Shown: positions 5,879 through 26,641 of the stretch, in pieces
How positions within the stretch are numbered: the stretch's first letter is position 1
Layout of the letters: each line of letters begins with the position of its first letter
Source: Pezizomycotina sp. ARF18
Lineage: Eukaryota > Ascomycota
DNA: 27,518 nucleotides
Reading direction: 5' to 3'
Assembly: GCA_002224055.1 (NCBI GenBank)
Contig: AZLU01000355.1
Coordinates: 1-27,518 of the forward strand
Translations under genes and position numbers: made by a program
The notes under the pieces: generated by a model
Seen by the model: only the letters and a program-made list of their open reading frames with translations
What the model was told of the DNA's origin: nothing
The model's database searches: none

Positions 5879-7035
5879 TCAAAGGCCTCCTTCGCGAGCA
5901 TATCCGCCAAATCAAGGTAGAACGCGATGGCATTAAACCTGGTTTTGGGAAGATTAGCAATTATATTTCCTCAGCATCTAAGCAACGACGTCAGACTTAC
6001 TTCCTTCCTGACCCAACCACCCTTTAACGGTATACCTCAGCCTATTACTCCAATTAATAAGCTCCAGATGATTAACCCCCACAAGTGTCCCCTTATATTC
6101 CCCCCACCGACTACTCTCCAAACTAACCAAACCGTCGTTCTTCCCTTCCTTTCCCACCAGTATCTTATGCGACAACCTAAACGGGTCAGCAGCGTGGCTT
6201 ATCCACCACCGTCGCACCGTATGAGAAATACCGCACGTCGGATCGTCGGGAGTGTTCGGATTAAACTCCCTTCATGTACTCCTTCGTCAGCTGCTTAAAC
6301 GCGCCCGTATCAACCCCGTCGTCCGCTCCCACATCGCATACACGCGCGATAAGTTATTCTCCCGATAACATCCAGCAAATAATCCGCGAAGCTGGACCCG
6401 TGGTGCGGCGTCGATATGGTTTACTAAGCTCTCACTTTAAATTCCGATGGCTTAAAGCGGGATATCAGGAGGCGCGCGTCGAGTCCGCCCATAGAGTGCG
6501 CGATTATGTTGACGGGCTGGCCGGGGATACTTGGGAGGCTATCTGCCGCGTGAGCCGCTCGCGCGCTGTTCGATTGTACCGGACGCGGGACGGAGGTTGC
6601 GATGACGGGGAGGCCGCCGGACATTGCGCCGAGCGCGTCTTCGATGCCGAACCAGTAGTGTACGGGGGAAGCCAGCGGCCGGCTAGCTTGAGCTCGGAGA
6701 AGCCAAAGAGGCCGTGGCGAGGACTATGGGGTTCCTCGGCGTGTCTGCGGGAGCTGTGCGTTAGCAGCGAGAGACGGGGAGGGAAGGGTGCAGCTGAAAG
6801 GGTAGAGGGCTCTACCGTAATGGTCGCGGATATGCGCGTATTCGTCCTCGATTTCGCGACCTAGGTCCTTCACCCTGGGGTCGGTCTTGCCCATTTCGTC
6901 GAGGAGAGCTCTACCGCTGCTGAACGTCCTTCCTCGACTCCCTGCACTGCCGACGACAGACCATGGATATCTGGAATTGCTGCTGCATGGTCGCAGACAA
7001 GCTCGCGCGATTTGTTCCACGGAATTTATCTTCAT
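5879..7035 (-). CDS. Alpha/beta-hydrolase lipase (fungal triacylglycerol lipase family), three exons, many frame breaks
   Basis: Putative lipase or esterase acting on acylglycerols. Exons: 7035-6816, 6744-6001 and 5938-5879; introns of 71 and 62 nt have GCTAAC/GCTAAT branch sites and CAG acceptors. The N-terminus from the ATG at 7035 is Arg- and Ser-rich and may be a mitochondrial presequence. Family landmarks in order: DEMGKTDPRVKDL, PRNPIVLA then the HG oxyanion strand, LPPVHYWFGIEDALGAM, VNIIAHSMGGLDARLLISRF with the catalytic Ser in AHSMGG (near 6485-6502), TGAFKQLT, RLSHKILVGKEGKNDGLVS, GTLVGVNHLELINWSNRLR with the probable catalytic His, and FNAIAFYLDLADMLAKE. About a dozen one-base breaks, such as GCCCAC read as GCCAC and CCCCCC as CCCCC, split it. 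No catalytic landmark is lost, which argues for sequence error rather than an old pseudogene. Confidence 0.85.
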
Positions 7036-11132: not shown

Positions 11133-11819
11133 ATGCATCAAATTGTTCCAGACTGGGATGATCCCAAAACTGTCAGAAAGCGCTCAAACTCCGGCGTAGT
11201 AATGCCGGAGTTGCAAGCGTTTGCGGCGAATGTACGCAGCGCAGCTGTGGAGAAACTTTGGCGAAATCATGCCAAAGACGCGCCTTGCGAGCAGTGTATT
11301 TTGAGAACGAAACGCACCAAATTGAGATGGAGCTCAAGCGCCAGCGCTTCGTTGATGCACACGTGGACGAGAAATTCCTAGGGAAGTATGGTGAAGGAAT
11401 TCTCATCGCGGACGATGTTAAAGTCCTCCGTTGGAAATCTGTAGGTTGTCCCTCTTATTACTGTTAAGCCTTTTGAGTTCTTCTTGCCATGCTTTTCTTT
11501 ATCTATCCGCGTGATGCTAACCTTTTGCGCCAAAACAGTTCAAATACGTATTCCCTGGGAGGAGGGCAACAATACCGCGAGACGTACTTACTGGATGGTG
11601 GCCGCAAAGATGTTCTTGGATAATCCGCTTTGGGCGATCGGTATCGAGCGGTTGTTCTATTCGCCAGCGGCATGACTTTGGAGGAAGCTGCGAAGAATGA
11701 AAGGGAATTTCCCTGTATTGCAACAATATATAGAGGACACTGATCCAAAGGTTCAGGATTGCCGTGCTTCTAGGCCTCTTTTAGCTAGTTTTCAAACCAA
11801 GCCTAAAGCAGATAAATAG
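11133..11819 (+). CDS. Unrecognised protein, paralogue B (two exons)
   Basis: Paralogue of the gene at 7975; function unknown. Exon 1 (11133-11440) begins MHQIVPDWDDPKTVRK and reads VEKLWRNHAKDA. One lost base near 11281 moves the frame to LRAVYFENETHQIEMELKRQ and FLGKYGEGILIADDVKVL. The intron (11441-11538, 98 nt) has a GTAGGT donor, GCTAAC branch and AACAG acceptor, in the same place as the 97-nt intron of paralogue A. Exon 2 reads, across two frames, WMVAAKMFLDNPLWAIGIER, then LFASGMTLEEAAKNE, then VLQQYIEDTDPKVQDC to TAG at 11817-11819. The acidic Asp/Glu tract of paralogue A is missing, so the copies differ in the middle. Sequence between the shared motifs is strongly diverged, so the duplication is not recent. 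Confidence 0.66.
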
Positions 11820-12290
11820 ACGTCCGCCCAATCGAAGCGAATTTTGACTTTTCAGTGTTACTAGGAACGAAACTGAGACAGGAAATATCATAATCATTAG
11901 CGTAGATCGCTCTGCAAAAGTTTCTGTACTTTTTGTTCCTTGAGGAAGTATTGTGACGCTAAATAAATACATTAAAGGGGAACTTTGCGTATAAAGTGGT
12001 TTGCCAGCGGTACCTTGTCTTTTATGCTGTAGCTATTAAGTAGCTCTTAGTGTCCCTTGCCTCGCATTTTCACTTTATCTGCTGGTAGTTGTTGCAAGAA
12101 ATATTTGTCCCTTGAAGAGAAAAAGAGGACCTCTCAAAAAACATGGACGACTCAGCGCTGACGCAGCTCCGGTCTCAATTGAGAAAAAGCAGTCGCAACT
12201 GAGGTCATGATGTGGGAGGTCCAAAAAAAAAAAAAAAAAAAAAAAGGGGGTGGGGGCTTTTTTCAATTAAATATTATTTTCTCCACCGAC
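11820..12290. other. Intergenic stretch between convergent genes
   Basis: No gene signal seen. It contains an A24 tract at about 12222-12245 followed by a G-rich patch. It separates the plus-strand gene ending at 11819 from the minus-strand gene ending at 12291. Confidence 0.5.
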
Positions 12291-15200
12291 TTATGAAATG
12301 AACGAGGGCATCTCCAACTAACAAATAACAATATACAACATCAAGTTAACCACCCATCTCCAAGGTATGTATTGTCCATTTAACTCAGACAACAATTCTC
12401 AAGATTCTTTCACATACCTTCTGTTGCCCAAGAGCCCAGACATCTTTGGGATCAAGAGGAAAGTGGAACTCCTGCTCTGCTGCCAAAGAGCGAAAGTTTA
12501 ACACTTTGCCATCGCATAGTGACAGTTTGCCCTTCTTTCGAGTATTATTTCCCTAAGCCCTTGTTTATTGAAAAACCAGAAAACGGAGACCATTAGCAAT
12601 ACCCTCAAGAGATATTGAGTATCTTTGATCTTCCATATACTTATTCTACCTTCTTTCGATCCTCTCAGATAATTGAACGTATTTTTTTTTTTTTTTTTTC
12701 ATCCGAAAGCCTACTGGACTTCCATCAAGATGATGTTGAAAGCCTTTTTTTTTTTATTCATCATGCGGATCTGCCGTGTAGACATCGTGCAAAAGGGTAG
12801 GTAGTGCAGATAGTTTCGAAATACTCAAAGAATATTCCGGAAAGACAAGTATCGAGGATAGGGAAGTACTCACCGATATTATTTTCACTGCTTTTCCCTT
12901 GAAATATAATTAATCAATCCACAAAAAGCCAGAGAACTTCCAAAGGAAAAAAAAAATAAAAAAATAAAAAAAATAAAAAAAAAATTTTTTTTCTCTTTTT
13001 TTACTGCAGGTCATGAAATAACCCGCAGCAAATAATAATCCCCTTCCCTAACCATCAACAATATTTTAGGTTAGTAAGCATGATACCTTTCAACCCCATC
13101 CTTGACCACTTCTTAAGCAATCCGTTCTTTAGTGGTAGTAGAGGAGAAGTCATCACTCACAGGGGTGGTTGAACTTCTAGATAACGATTAAAATCCCTAT
13201 AGGGATGGTAAAATATCAGCATACACTCCTCAAAGAGTTGGTCTTAGGTCTTCGTTCTGTAACCCCTTTAATACTAATGCTCTTGGGATATTCTTCAGAT
13301 ATAGGTCGTTTTAATTCATCGGCGAAAGCCTCATAAGATGAATCAGTTTTGTTTGTGTGTCATAATTAGAACTTCCGGGGTGAGAGCAATGATTTTCCTA
13401 TTGACATCATCATCATCATGATCATCTTTTTTTTGTTTTATTTTTTAGCCTAAAAAGGGTAAATTGGTTGAGCATACTTATGATGGATGTCGAAAAGTCT
13501 TCGGGGAAACAAGCGCTGTTAGTATTCGTACAACCTCCTCGTTCGAGGTGATGTGTAGGTCGTCTTGCTAACCAGTTGCCCTTCCCTCAACCGGTTTCAT
13601 CGCTGCAGAACTTTCTCCAAGTCATCCATGATGAAATGACAGTGCAACTGTCTGTTCTGATTATGAATTTACCGAGAGGAAAGCATTAAGAGGTAAGCAC
13701 CCACAGAATCCCTTCCTGAACCTCAGCTAGAACTACATCATCAAATAAAGAGTTAGCTGTGGTCAAAGAAGTCAAGAAGGGTCTTTTAAAGCTAATTTTT
13801 CAACGCGTAGTCTTTGAGGCTCGCTCGGAAAATAATAAATAGTTATTTTTTCACGGAAGAAAATTCTCCGAATACGTTCTCGCTGTGTGGTTATTCATCA
13901 TCGCGGAGCCTTCTCTTGAACAGAAATGGAAAAATCAAAAGGTATTAACTCACCAAAGAATTCTGTCTAAGTACTCAGCTAAATACTACATCACAAAAAA
14001 ATGTTAGCAGTGATCGAAAATCCCCTAAGCTAATTTTTATAATGCTGTTTTAGGCTCTTCAGAAAAAATAAACAGTTTAGTCCGTTATGAAACATTTCCG
14101 TAATACGTTCTCGTTGTGTGGTTATTCATTATCGCAAAGCTTCATCTCTAAAAACAAATGGAACAACAAAAAACAGGTACGAACTCACCGCGTTTCTTCG
14201 TCTTTTTTTTTTTTTTTTTTTGAACCTCTTAGAGATTGATCCAGGCAGGAAAGGAAGCAGTTCGTTAGCAAACAGAGTCGAGGAGGCACGAATTACACTA
14301 CACGCTAATGAATTTCTTCCTTTTCTTTTTATCTAGGCCGCTCAGAAGCATCAACAAATAATTTGTCGTCATCGGAACACTCTGACAAAGCTACTTTGAA
14401 TCATCATCATCAGGCTTTGTTTATCTGGCAGCTGTGCTCCAGATTCTATGGGCGGGAGGGAGGGATATCACAGACAGGTACGTACTCACCACATCCTTTC
14501 TTTCTTTCTTTTAATCTTTCAGCTGCAAGATGAAGACAGAATCAAAACAGAAAACATAAGGCTAGCCAGCCAGGTCAACCTGGTTTTGGTACACTTCAAT
14601 GCTAATGTTTTTTTTTTGTCTTTGGCTGCTCATCAGATAACAGAGTGTCGAGTCGTCATTAAGAAAATTCCGGTTATCGATATGTTTGATAATCATACTA
14701 GGCCATCGTTTTTGCAGCTACCAGCTGTGGGTGGGAGGGAGAGGAAGGTAAGGACTCACTCACCCGATTTTCGGGACCTTTGCTGCAAAATCATCAAAAA
14801 AAAAAAAAAAAAGGCATACTGTTAGTCAGAGACTTAAGAAGATGCTTATACATTCCCGTACTGATATTATTGTTTTTTTTTTTTTTTTTGGCTACTCATC
14901 AGTAAAAGCAAAGGAGATTTGGATCGCCATTGGGAAGTCCGATTGTAAACGTATTTGATCATATACGGCCGTCTTGCTAGCAGCTGTGCTTCAGCTGCTT
15001 GGGTTGGAGGGTGACGGAAGGTAATTACTGACCGCATTCTATTTATTCGGCGTTGCGAGATGAAATCGAAGATAAAAAGAGAGTAAATTTTAGTAAAGGA
15101 TACTTGTACGTTTCCACACTAATAATATTTTTGTTTTCATCTTACGGCCGCTCATCAGTAGAAGCGCAAAGGTTCTAAATCGTCATCGTGAAAACTCCGA

Positions 15201-17737
15201 TTATCGATATGGTTTGATCATCATATAAGGCGGGGGTCTTTGTAGCTGCGAGCAACTAAGGGTGGGAGGGTGAGGGAAGGTACGTACTGACCACATTCCG
15301 TTTAATATGCACTGAGAGATAAAAAAAAAATCCATTGTTAGCATTGGCAAGGCAATTCTGTGCATGTCTATACTAATATTGTTCTTCCTTATTTTTATGG
15401 CCGCCATCAGTGGAAACGTAAAAGAATTAAATCGTCATTGCGAAAACTCCGATTATCGATATGTTTTGATCATCATTCAAGGCCGTCTTCTCAGCAGCTT
15501 TTGCTATAGTTGCTAAGGTTGGAAGCGTGAGGAATCGTGAAGAAAACAGGTATGTACTCACCATATTTTTTTTCTTCAACTGTCTCCGGGAGAATCTCCA
15601 GTACCTATACGGAAAACTCATGAGTTAGTATCTTTCTTGATCTCAGTATAATATTTAAGCTAATGGTTTCTTTTTCTTTCTTTTTTGTGGGGTGCTCAGA
15701 GGACAGTAAGATTTTTTTGAACGCGCATTGGGAACATTGCAACAAAATTCCCTCACGCTAGGTACTAGTATCATCATAGGCAAGCCAGAGAGACTTCCAA
15801 AATAAAAGGGTTCAAGCAAAGGTACGTAATTGCCTTCCTGAGTACTTACTAAATTTTTACATGCCGAATTGTCTGAAATTGACGAAGTGCTTATAAGCTG
15901 CGCCTTAGAGTGAGGGGTGAGTACCGACTCCAAATCTCGGCATGAGAAATATTGTATAAGAACACTAGGTTGAATGTGTAAGAGAAAACTAACATTAGTA
16001 ATGATATCTTCAAACTTTATATATATATTTTCAAGTTACAGGTTAAAAACCCGATAATAATTGAGGTGTGGGGAGTCAGATTACTGATGCGATACTTGTT
16101 TGAATCAGTGACAGCACCAAGGGTGGCCTCATTCGAACGAGATTCTTGTTCTCATGATGATAACTCTCGGAGGGAACTGGGGAATGACAGAGAGAGACGA
16201 GGGAGAGAAAGTAAGTAACCACTTACATATACCTTTTATTGCGTATGAGCCGCTTTGGCAAACCACCTGGGATGAACTTCCAAGCTGATTCTGTTCTTAG
16301 GTCCCAAAAATAGCACTACACAGATACCAACAAAGGTCCGCAGCAAAGACACAAGCTCTTGAAATGATGAGAGAAAACTTCGTCGATGATCTTACTGCAA
16401 TGCAAATGCGGCTAATGAACACTTGAAATCGTAGCAGTTTCAGTCTGATCTTGAGCTAGGTCTTTGCGGACCTGTCTTGCGTGGCAGTACGATTCGATGC
16501 ATAGGTAGGCTTCGAAGAGATCGAGCAGAATCTCTGAAGGTGGTAGCTATATCCAAAGCATTCCTGTCCCCTATGTTGCGCTTGAGGAAGGCAGTTTATT
16601 GTTAGCCCATAAGTCCCATTGAAAGAAAATTTTTGGGTGTTTGCCTTGATGTTTTTTTCTTTGGAGATCATTGGATCAGATTTTTGGTGCATGTGTGGGC
16701 TCTTGAGAAACACCGTTTCTGAAATGATGAAAAAATACCCCAAGGATGCCAAAGAAGATAAGACTAAGTCGAATCTTTCTAGTGAAGCACTTTTGACCCT
16801 CTTTGAGTGTACGATTTTTCTTGGACCTGGTATCAAAGATTCCAAAATCCTTGGGTTTGCTCTTGACTCTTTCAATACCCTGATCAGAAACTGTTTTACG
16901 CAAGCAAGGACCTCATGCTCTAGGTCTTTTGCTGATTCAGAATGATTGGTCTTGTGTTAACCAATTAGTGTAGTCCCCAGTCCATGTTTTGGCCATGAAT
17001 TTTTGCTTCAATTTGGTAGTGAGGCGCTAACAGCATTCGCCATGGGAAATTCATGGCTTCTCATCATATAGATCTCCAAAAAGATAGAATGGGAAACCTC
17101 GGAAAAGGACATGTGGGTGACACTTACAATTGCGTGAGGTTTGCCTCCTGACACTAATTGTTCGCGAGCGTTCGTGGATTGTTCAAATGTTTGCAAAGTC
17201 AGTAGAGAGCGCATCAAAGAGGGAAGTAAAAAAACATCCTGCATTCAAAATATTCTTTTCTTGAAGAGATCATGCATCGCACGGACATTTTTTGTGGAGA
17301 AAAGATTGGTTCTTAAATGATGATCCATACCATCAATCTTCTGAACACCAGGTAAGTGTTTACTGTGTAGAAAATTGGGACTCTGATAAGAATCAAACTA
17401 TGTATAGACCATTCTTGAAGGAGGTGTAGTTCTATACTAGCTGTTCAAAAGTTTTGCAGTTGACACTCGCTAACAGCTTGAGCGCGCTACCATCAATGAT
17501 GGCATTGCGACAATTTTCATTTTCTTCCACTTGATTCTTGGGGATCATTCTTCTAGCTCAGCGGCATTCTTCTCATCATGGATCTCTTTTGACTGAAGCT
17601 TTTGGATATGTAATGATGTAACGGGGACGGACTACTTACAGTTTGGCGAGACGCTGAGCGTATTCCAAAACAAGCTCGTCAACAAGACATCGCCAACGAA
17701 GCTCAAGCTTTTGAGACAGAATCAACGACAAGGTCAT
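12291..17737 (-). CDS. Long multi-exon gene of unknown function with a microexon array
   Basis: I do not recognise the product. The start at 17737 (exon to 17640, donor GTAAGT) reads LSLILSQKLELRWRCLVDEL. Next exons: 17592-17438 (IHDEKNAAELEE, then NCRNAIIDGSALKLLASVNC; donor GTATAG), 17340-17128 (NLFSTKNVRAMHDLFKKRIF; donor GTAAGT), and an open exon from 16919. Then come microexons between 16266 and 13705, listed separately. Larger exons resume about 13645-13230 (VRILTALVSPKT, KDDHDDDDVNRKIIALTPEV, YEAFADELKRPISEEYPKSI), 13170-13020 (STTPVSDDFSSTTTKER, with a short TACTAAC intron), a 24-nt exon at about 12890 before GTGAGTAC, YVQLSERIERR, and about 12560-12418 (LCDGKVLNFRSLAAEQEF, LDPKDVWALGQQK). 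The last exon is 12317-12291. Several frame breaks. CT-rich leader. The plus strand also has open pieces in places, so exon calls in 16200-16500 are uncertain. Confidence 0.55.
13705..13726 (-). other. Candidate microexon, 22-25 nt
   Basis: Acceptor TTCTAG with a GCTAAC branch about 25 nt before it; donor GTGGGT or GTGCTT. It is related to the next microexon upstream: both begin CTGAG and carry GATTCT or AATTCT near the end, reading E-V-Q-E-G-I-L against E-Y-L-D-R-I-L. Confidence 0.4.
13954..13978 (-). other. Candidate microexon, 25 nt
   Basis: Acceptor ATTTAG preceded by TGCTAAC and a T-run; donor GTGAGTTAA. It reads EYLDRIL in one phase, the counterpart of the 13705-13726 exon. Confidence 0.42.
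14189..14227 (-). other. Candidate microexon with a long A tract, about 39 nt
   Basis: Acceptor CTCTAAG with a TTTGCTAACG branch and pyrimidine tract; donor GTGAGTTCG. About 20 A residues would encode a lysine run before DEET. Tract length is uncertain, so phase cannot be judged. Confidence 0.35.
14490..14522 (-). other. Candidate microexon, 33 nt
   Basis: Acceptor TCATCTTGCAG with a long pyrimidine tract; donor GTGAGTACG. It encodes a basic stretch (ERLKERKKGC) in one phase. Confidence 0.42.
14764..14782 (-). other. Candidate microexon, 19 nt
   Basis: Acceptor TGATTTTGCAG with a CTGACTAAC branch and a T17 tract; donor GTGAGTGAG. This is the cleanest acceptor in the array. Confidence 0.45.
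15033..15054 (-). other. Candidate microexon with a damaged acceptor
   Basis: The unit aligns with its neighbours and has a TTTACTAAA branch and pyrimidine tract, but the expected CTCGCAG reads CTCGCAA. The donor is the weaker GTCAGT. An in-frame TAG occurs in one phase. It could be a dead unit or a base error. Confidence 0.25.
15292..15311 (-). other. Candidate microexon, 20 nt
   Basis: Acceptor TATCTCTCAG with an ATGCTAACA branch and T10 tract; donor GTCAGTACG. The ATTAAA...GAATGTG core resembles parts of the 15033 and 14490 units. Confidence 0.42.
15562..15604 (-). other. Candidate microexon, 43 nt
   Basis: Acceptor CCGTATAG with a perfect TACTAAC branch 26 nt upstream; donor GTGAGTACA. 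It reads YWRFSRRQLKKKNM in one phase. Confidence 0.45.
15850..15872 (-). other. Candidate microexon, 23 nt
   Basis: Acceptor CAATTTCAG; donor GTAAGTACT. Two phases are open (NSACKNL or TIRHVKI), so phase is not decided. Confidence 0.4.
16227..16266 (-). other. Candidate small exon, 40 nt
   Basis: Acceptor CATCCCAG; donor GTAAGT at 16226 or GTATAT at 16232. It reads VVCQSGSYAIKGI. It links the array to the larger upstream exons but is not itself a clear repeat unit. Confidence 0.38.
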
Positions 17738-18121
17738 ATCCCGTCAAGTTAAAGGCTTAGCAAGACTCTTCTGAGAAGAGGGCTTCAGAGAAAGGGAATT
17801 GAGGAGATGTATTGGATACCAAAGTGATGGAAAAGGATAAAAAAAATCTTTTTTTTGGGTGATGGGTGTTAATTTTTTCGTTGTTGTGGGAGGGTAGGAA
17901 GAGTGGTTTGTGTGCGTCGACGTAGAAGGGAGAAAAAGAAATAATTCTGTCCTCCCACCTACGAAGAAAATAAAATAACGCGAAAGGCGGGAAGAAAAAA
18001 AAAAAAAAAAAAAAACATCGAAGGTGCTGGAATCAAGGGAACAATAGCCAAGCGAAAAGATGCCTTTGCTAACCACGAACCTTTTTAAAGAAAAAATGGA
18101 TGGAGCTAGGGCACGTGATCT
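17738..18121. promoter_or_regulatory. Shared divergent promoter region
   Basis: This 384-bp segment lies between the minus-strand ATG at 17737 and the plus-strand ATG at 18122. Most of it, about 17760-18050, is purine-rich on plus and pyrimidine-rich on minus, which suits a CT-rich leader for the minus gene. It contains an A21-class tract near 18000. No single TATA box was assigned. Confidence 0.45.
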
Positions 18122-26021: not shown

Positions 26022-26101
26022 AGATCTATTATCTCATCCCTTCCACGTACTCCACTCCGATCCTCCCCTATCCACCCTTCTATCCGACTCATAAGCCCCA
26101 C

Positions 26102-26641
26102 TCAAAGCTTCGCATCGACCATCTGCGCCAGTTTCTTCCTCGGAATAGCCTGCAAATCACTATTCCCGCCAATATGACTCTGTCCGATGAAAATACTCGG
26201 CACCGTGCTCTGGCCCGTTTTATTCTTCCTAAAATCACATAATTCCCATTCTTAGTCCCTTCCTCTCGCACCTCCAGCATAAAAAAAAGAATAGAGGAAA
26301 AAAAAGAACCTACAGCGCAACCTGAATATCGTCGCCATCTACAACCACCAGCTCCGTCAGCGTCAAAAACACAATTTAAAACAAATACATACGAGAAGGA
26401 TGATAACTTACTTTCTTCCTTGTCCAATTCAATAACCTTAAACTCCACCTTGAGATCCGAAATGGTTTCCTTGGCCTTTCTACAGTAGGGACACCACGAT
26501 TTGAGAAAACCACTTATGATGCACATTTATTAGCATGAGGTCCCTACTTTAAGAACCTGAGCTCGACTTGTGTAATGATTTTCTTTTTACCTATCTTATT
26601 ATCGTTGACATATTCCTCAACTTGTCCTTTGCCGTAGACAT
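26102..26641 (-). CDS. Dithiol glutaredoxin (CPYC type), four exons, frame-broken in two
   Basis: Glutathione-dependent thiol-disulfide oxidoreductase of the cytosolic Grx class. Exons: 26641-26591, 26512-26412, 26338-26314 and 26228-26102. Donors GTAAAA, GTAAGT and GTAGGT; acceptors AAG, TAG, TAG. Joined, the reading gives the start MSTAKDK, VEEYVNDNKI, VVFSK, then SWCPYCRKAKETISDLKVEF with the CPYC active site, KVIELDKEENGDDIQVAL, then TVPSIFIGQSHIGGNSDLQA with the TVP cis-proline and the GG-ND glutathione-binding motif, and QMVDAKL. About 100 residues, the family's normal length. Exon 1 lacks one base before GTT and exon 2 lacks one in the AAA before TCG; all catalytic and glutathione-binding residues are present. 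A longer N-terminus upstream of the ATG is possible. Confidence 0.88.

Follow-up and report, generated by a model that had tools for sequence, protein, structure and literature searches.

A tandem row of minus-strand introns with box C/D snoRNA-like elements, probably a duplicated host gene, in Pezizomycotina sp. ARF18

Contig AZLU01000355.1 (C355) of the ascomycete Pezizomycotina sp. ARF18 was analysed whole, and this stretch of 27,518 bp is called the window (genome 46.4 Mb in 408 contigs). At 13692..15872 it holds a tandem row of homologous minus-strand introns separated by small exons, and, judged from its sequence, the row is probably a tandemly duplicated, minus-strand and probably non-coding host gene in which each intron carries a box C/D small nucleolar RNA (snoRNA). 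Box C/D snoRNAs are stable RNAs of 65–90 nucleotides (nt) bound by Nop1/Nop56/Nop58/Snu13, in which box C (RUGAUGA) is followed 50–100 nt later by box D (CUGA), with internal C′ and D′ boxes between them and a terminal stem joining both ends. A guide of at least 10 nt to ribosomal RNA (rRNA) or small nuclear RNA adjoins D or D′, and members without a guide are called orphans.

The repeat is defined by nine anchors (13693, 13942, 14177, 14478, 14748, 15021, 15280, 15550 and 15822), and their eight spacings of 235–301 bp confirm the unit length given in an earlier note on this DNA. Units 1 to 8, numbered by rising coordinate, were aligned with MAFFT and fall into a close pair, 1–2 (identity 0.67), and a group, 3–7 (0.50–0.71). 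The remaining 17 pairs (0.41–0.49) lie near the identity of shuffled units (0.38 ± 0.04, 95% point 0.45, maximum 0.51, 30 sets), so distant units have little in common except the signals. A tandem-repeat finder did not flag the array, which is therefore old or fast-diverging.

Minus-strand splice signals were largely as the earlier note had proposed. For its GTGAGT-type donors, GTNAGT was found at eight of the nine anchors, 13700 reading GTGCTT instead; the ninth donor, GTAAGT at 15849, is displaced from its anchor. The CTAAC branch site, claimed for nearly all units, is present in six of eight (unit 6 reads CTAAA, and unit 4 has none). Taking the first acceptor past the branch place (first-AG rule), the predicted CAG or TAG becomes YAG in seven of eight units and AAG in one, and the introns are 203–262 nt long. 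By the same rule the exons from 15604 down to 13701 are 43, 20, 6, 19, 33, 39, 32 and 32 nt long, so the range of 19–43 nt is right for seven of the eight. The introns, in minus-strand order, and the exons that follow them are:

15605..15849, minus strand, intron of unit 8: GTAAGT ... TACTAAC ... TAG, 245 nt
15562..15604, minus strand, small exon following unit 8: 43 nt
15312..15561, minus strand, intron of unit 7: GTGAGT ... GCTAAC ... CAG, 250 nt
15292..15311, minus strand, small exon following unit 7: 20 nt
15039..15291, minus strand, intron of unit 6: GTCAGT ... CTAAA ... TAG, 253 nt
15033..15038, minus strand, small exon following unit 6: 6 nt; skipping possible
14783..15032, minus strand, intron of unit 5: GTCAGT ... 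CTGACTAAC ... CAG, 250 nt
14764..14782, minus strand, small exon following unit 5: 19 nt
14523..14763, minus strand, intron of unit 4: GTGAGT ... without CTAAC ... CAG, 241 nt
14490..14522, minus strand, small exon following unit 4: 33 nt
14228..14489, minus strand, intron of unit 3: GTGAGT ... GCTAAC ... AAG, 262 nt
14189..14227, minus strand, small exon following unit 3: 39 nt
13986..14188, minus strand, intron of unit 2: GTGAGT ... GCTAAC ... TAG, 203 nt
13954..13985, minus strand, small exon following unit 2: 32 nt
13733..13953, minus strand, intron of unit 1: GTGAGT ... GCTAAC ... TAG, 221 nt
13701..13732, minus strand, small exon following unit 1: 32 nt

Unit, intron and exon alignments upheld the central claim of homologous minus-strand introns with faster-changing exons. 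With a permissive pairwise aligner, the introns of units 4–7 exceed their shuffled baseline (0.77–0.81 versus 0.71), and the exons of these units lie at about theirs (0.68, 0.85 and 0.50 versus 0.69, from the three of six pairs that were usable with exons of at least 15 nt). The contrast does not extend to pair 1–2, whose exons are conserved too, nor to intron pair 3–4, which is at baseline (0.71). If the introns encode snoRNAs, the need to keep that product would conserve them, and the exons, being probably packaging, would drift; selection on the intron, as in host genes, would thus give the pattern that the earlier note saw.

All eight minus-strand introns hold a sequence resembling a box C/D snoRNA, some of the boxes being imperfect:

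15696..15777, minus strand, C/D element of unit 8: C ATGATGA, D CTGA
15407..15476, minus strand, C/D element of unit 7: C ATGATGA, D′ CGGA, C′ ATGACGA, D CTGA
15155..15224, minus strand, C/D element of unit 6: C ATGATGA, D′ CGGA, C′ ATGACGA, D CTGA
14899..14962, minus strand, C/D element of unit 5: C TGATCA (one mismatch), D′ CGGA, C′ ATGGCGA, D CTGA
14633..14696, minus strand, C/D element of unit 4: C TGATTA (one mismatch), D′ CGGA, C′ ATGACGA, D CTGA
14342..14413, minus strand, C/D element of unit 3: C TGATGA, C′ ATGACGA, D CTGA
14059..14133, minus strand, C/D-like element of unit 2: C TAATGA (one mismatch), D CTGA
13825..13901, minus strand, C/D-like element of unit 1: C TGATGA, D degenerate (CCGA)
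13343..13419, minus strand, possible further C/D element: 7-bp flanking stem, within a TGATGATGATG stretch

Box C is perfect (TGATGA) in units 1, 3, 6, 7 and 8, with one mismatch in 2, 4 and 5; D is CTGA in seven of eight units, and both boxes are perfect in four. In the core alignment of units 3–7, 23 of 94 columns are invariant, of which five fall in box C (ATGAT), six in C′ (ATG.CGA), two in D, five directly behind D, and five elsewhere; the D box of unit 3 lies three columns away from that of units 4–7. D′ is CGGA in all four of units 4–7 and C′ has the consensus ATGRCGA there, with a D′–C′ gap of 7–9 nt and a C′–D distance of 16–21 nt. C′ is also seen in unit 3, and neither C′ nor D′ is evident in units 1, 2 and 8. 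The guide stretches between the boxes vary among units, and units 1, 2 and 8, barely alignable elsewhere, yet retain C and D at corresponding places. The layout expected of a host gene is found in eight units, of which 4 and 6 lack CTAAC, and coding potential is weak, not nil. Single-sequence folds showed no common structure. An external helix between the intron flanks of each element was considered and rejected (mean −16.6 for matched, −15.8 for mismatched and −16.3 for shuffled flanks).

Positions 12201–17800 were scanned for C and D boxes with a terminal stem (score of at least 2, 200 shuffles), giving 11 minus-strand candidates against a shuffled mean of 1.0, a count reached in 0 of 200 shuffles, and three candidates on plus. 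A second, combined scan, covering the whole window, looked for donor, C, D and branch site together and gave six minus-strand matches, all within 12.6–16.2 kb (units 2, 5, 7 and 8 and two flanking units), and two overlapping matches on plus, compared with a mean of 0.22 and a maximum of 2 in 100 shuffles. In the six matches the donor-to-C distance is 41–110 nt and the D-to-branch distance 51–77 nt; for unit 2 the scan joined D to another one-mismatch C box, AGATGA at 14147. The same scan found nothing in 266,136 strand-bases taken from elsewhere in the genome, in pieces that partly overlap. Paralogous units are not independent, which limits the combined-scan statistic; the two flanking units are better evidence than the matches within the array. 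With them, the arrangement of the same layout probably continues beyond 13692..15872:

15998..16226, minus strand, flanking unit upstream of the array: donor GTAAGT at 16226, C TCATGA at 16157 (one mismatch), D ending at 16076, CTAAT at 15998
12592..12873, minus strand, flanking unit downstream of the array: donor GTGAGT at 12873, C TGATGA at 12763, D ending at 12665, CTAAT at 12596

A pyrimidine-rich stretch at ~17.75–17.97 kb and a GT donor at ~17640, both noted by eye, could mark the 5′ end of the host gene.

For the guides, 13 candidates (the eight units, the two flanking units, the further minus-strand element and two plus-strand candidates) were compared with the fungus's own ribosomal DNA (rDNA), taken from contig C189 (15800–23400), with 18S numbered from the 18S start motif. 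The D guide of unit 7 forms 17 of 18 pairs with 18S 1127–1144 (15 Watson–Crick, two G–U, one mismatch), and this duplex is the best among the 188 CTGA sites in the window. It pairs with the 18S site of yeast snR41 and Neurospora crassa CD9, position 1126 in yeast numbering. CD9 is listed as the homolog of snR41, with a D guide acting on 18S-Gm1122 (PMC2780460); it is likewise intronic, and unit 7 pairs to the same 18S stretch directly upstream of D. Unit 7 differs from snR41/CD9 by the one mismatch, the two G–U pairs and a spacing that points towards A1129 instead of G1127.

No D guide of the other 12 candidates was clearly beyond shuffles against rRNA, the nearest being the 13343..13419 element (P 0.03–0.06) and unit 4 (P 0.14), and the same was true of the D′ guides of units 4–7 and of long contiguous rRNA matches of the elements; U2 complementarity, compared without controls, gave nothing striking. 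In the register of unit 7, the percentile among rRNA positions was 100.0 for unit 6, 98.1 for unit 5, 97.0 for unit 2, 93.3 for unit 1, 87.7 for unit 3, 82.4 for unit 8 and 50.2 for unit 4, and 95.8, 56.4 and 44.9 for the donor-12873 unit, the donor-16226 unit and the 13343..13419 element; since AT-rich guides favour an AT-rich site, these percentiles are at most suggestive. The guides other than that of unit 7 look orphan, and the array elements are paralogs with different guides.

A canonical snR41-type gene elsewhere in the genome was sought, and no exact guide match was found. Near matches with up to two mismatches numbered 21 genome-wide, versus 49 for a reversed control pattern, and six of them are rDNA. 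Of the 15 outside rDNA, none is accompanied by a perfect C box at a distance of up to 110 nt; in one (L114) a one-mismatch C box precedes the end of CTGA by 51 nt, and another (L113) has a one-mismatch C box and CTGT in place of D. As no canonical guide copy was found elsewhere, descent of the array from an snR41-type snoRNA counts as a lead rather than as a result.

Under the host-gene reading, RNA would be transcribed from the minus strand and spliced, each intron would be debranched and trimmed to its C/D core, which the usual C/D proteins would hold, and the spliced exons would be by-products; mature elements with a guide might direct 2′-O-methylation. The array would have arisen by repeated tandem duplication of one exon–intron unit, with boxes and splice signals kept while guides and exons drifted, leaving paralogs with different guides, of which unit 7 and, weakly, unit 6 would retain complementarity to the snR41/CD9 18S site.

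Several observations weigh against this reading. The terminal stems are weak, being short, offset or imperfect, and in units 1, 2, 4 and 5 one of the boxes C and D departs from its consensus, a state also seen in snoRNA pseudogenes. Only four array elements (units 3, 6, 7 and 8) are among the listed minus-strand candidates of the stem scan, the others listed being 12665–12764, 13295–13425 (several overlapping) and 14826–14902. The criteria of the combined scan were chosen post hoc, and it misses units 1, 3, 4 and 6. At the gathering score, Rfam gave no match in the window. A permissive Rfam search of 11800–18100 gave 13 matches, seven of them to snoRNA families and these split between strands (four minus, three plus); one of the 13, SNORD48 (E 4.6), is in register with unit 3. 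In favour of the reading, a permissive search of 15100–15520 gave eight matches, all minus and seven of them to snoRNA or small Cajal body RNA (scaRNA) families, with snoU30 on units 6 and 7 and SCARNA18 on unit 6 in register, at chance level (E 1.4–3.9); permissive matches with E from 0.03 to 8 prove nothing. On the side against, a convincing rRNA guide was found in just one of the 13 candidates, and for it P is 0.010 (200 shuffles of its own guide), or ~0.13 over 13 tests. By the D+5 rule this guide would aim at A1129, two nucleotides short of G1127; the pairing of the snR41/CD9 site is present, and G1126/1122 does not stand at the fifth nucleotide from D. Finally, the exons of the close pair 1–2 also exceed their baseline (0.79 versus 0.67).

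The imperfect boxes in four of eight units, the weak stems and the guides without rRNA targets would suit a dead array, that is, tandem copies of a C/D ancestor that have lost processing. This explanation shares its origin with the host-gene reading, and the two do not fully exclude each other. In units 3–7, however, the boxes are the least variable part, and the splice signals remain even in units whose other sequence is now scarcely more alike than that of shuffled units. We consider a dead array unlikely, if a serious contender.

A further alternative places splicing on the plus strand, in a non-coding RNA whose introns run from AG|GTACGT to TCAG and whose exons of 95–141 nt are antisense to the snoRNA-like blocks, or has both strands spliced. 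On plus, [ACG]AG|GTA stands at nine of nine anchors (13693–15830), interleaved with the minus-strand signals and retained even beside a displaced (15849) or slipped minus donor, and the donors hold on average 7.6 of nine consensus positions versus 6.7 on minus. CTAAT or CTGAT occurs in eight of eight units, followed in most by a T-rich tract before TCAG, the YAG acceptor. Two C/D candidates near the array also lie on plus, the strand opposite to the array elements:

17317–17386, plus strand, C/D candidate: perfect C and D, 9-bp terminal stem
16364–16448, plus strand, C/D candidate: long imperfect terminal helix

The stem of the first scores 10.5, which none of 200 whole-window shuffles and no minus-strand candidate reached; in Rfam it matches snoZ185 below threshold (25.2 bits, where 50 is the cut-off), and no rRNA guide was found for it. 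The second could pair with 5.8S over 11 nt, at a place distant from box D (P 0.23). Against plus-strand splicing, TCAG comes free with any antisense D box, being its complement, the order and spacing of C, D′, C′ and D are confined to minus, and the combined scan gave six minus matches to two overlapping ones on plus. The plus exons hold no long frame: a protein gene on this strand was rejected, as its best product over 576 acceptor choices was 103 amino acids (aa), and single-choice shuffles average 70 and reach 140. Box D leaves AGGTA and CTAAT without explanation, and both persist where the minus donor has shifted; either splicing occurs on both strands, or the minus strand makes some other use of these bases. 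Overall, the plus-strand explanation is improbable.

Less probable still is a minus-strand protein gene of tandemly duplicated, quickly evolving microexons, one of two explanations offered by the earlier note. When the first-AG exons were spliced, one frame was open for 94 codons (P 0.006 by exon-wise shuffling), which counts for such a gene, and the six core microexons alone gave P 0.03. Yet 6% of 120 slid-exon controls were as long, and no Pfam match of the translation reached its cut-off (best MLIP, E 0.0095, 15.2 bits versus 27). A bZIP-like look, noted by eye, was rejected, as Pfam gave no bZIP at E 10. One exon contains a run of 19 A, assembly indels seem to be present, and the conservation sits in the intron with the layout of snoRNA boxes. 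The other explanation, repeated insertion of introner-like elements into one gene, would account for homologous introns with good signals, but it is hardly credible, as the copies stand in one tandem row, their conservation is accounted for by the snoRNA layout, and a DNA search of the fungus's own genome, which skips simple repeats and common words, returned the array plus one 30-bp match only.

The favoured host gene has known parallels. In Euascomycete host genes each intron carries one C/D snoRNA, the host is non-coding and its exons are poorly conserved (PMC2780460, PMC3596301). The UHG-like clusters I–V of N. crassa and other Euascomycetes would share these features of intronic C/D snoRNAs, non-coding host and drifting exons with the array, but they hold different snoRNAs, most with predicted rRNA guides, whereas the introns of the array are paralogous and most of its guides unmatched. 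The N. crassa survey places intronic snoRNAs mainly 41–60 nt from the 5′ splice site, a shorter distance than the 41–110 nt from donor to C in the six combined-scan matches. It presents filamentous-fungus clusters as conserved sets of guides, most of them single-copy; isoforms are few in N. crassa, and repeat-induced point mutation (RIP) was proposed as the reason (PMC2780460). Its snoRNAs are thus mostly singletons, in contrast to the paralogous array elements.

SNORD115 and SNORD116 of SNHG14 are described as tandem host introns with related C/D snoRNAs lacking a known target (PMC11608373, PMC4063771). They are mammalian and imprinted and occupy 29 and 48 introns, and the fungal copies are fewer and far more diverged; the two presumably arose independently. 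In organisation the array would resemble SNORD115/116 more closely than the fungal clusters known to us, whose members differ from one another. A limited literature search, restricted to open papers and judged from titles and the first lines of abstracts, turned up no tandem array of paralogous or orphan snoRNAs in a fungus.

Introners spread across many unrelated genes. Those of Dothideomycetes are, like the array, families of similar spliceosomal introns in a fungus, and the array is unlike them in forming one tandem row with no further copy found except the 30-bp match. Introner-like elements are described as invasive, multiplying introns (PMC4457414).

A more specific history for the host gene is possible, though tentative: an snR41-type intronic C/D snoRNA may have been amplified in tandem, its copies freed from rRNA guiding and their guides diversifying, with the antisense strand spliced too. 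The array may then be a fungal counterpart of SNORD115/116, with boxes and splice signals kept, guides turned towards other targets, and sense and antisense splice sites interleaved. A tandem array of diverged paralogs would show the birth of fungal snoRNAs through exon–intron duplication, and would offer a small, tractable parallel to SNORD115/116 and a view of how guides retarget under fixed boxes. It would also illustrate a trap, as a snoRNA host gene can mimic a fast-evolving microexon gene or an introner array.

Elsewhere in the window, a domain scan gave a Fung_rhodopsin match at 63–530 and a glutaredoxin match at 26092–26526, which would suit a filamentous ascomycete. A stop-free frame of 199 aa at 6265–6861 (plus strand) lies in the most GC-rich kilobase of the contig (57%) and has no Pfam match. 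At 12127–12245 an inverted repeat, GGACCTC ... GAGGTCC, followed by a long A tract was noted by eye, and is possibly a small mobile element.

In the wider genome, the frame of a TCP1-family gene seems broken inside an exon on contig C139 (~74,526–76,271), which suggests assembly indel errors, so homopolymer lengths are not to be trusted. Chaperonin genes yielded few introns for splice-site statistics, in part because their frames are interrupted as if by such indels, and this comparison was given up. On C189, six rDNA places lie 10.8–10.9 kb apart, and ~2.6 kb separate the 18S start motif from the primer site of internal transcribed spacer 1; the 18S therefore probably holds one or more inserts, perhaps group I introns. 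Of 60 contig heads sampled, 40 were run through Rfam without a match, and a motif check of the sampled genome pieces found no rRNA. Among the heads of contigs C348–C408 (C355 excluded), 12 of 60 have a GC content of at most 27%, down to 12%, and would resemble the RIP-affected compartments of ascomycete genomes.

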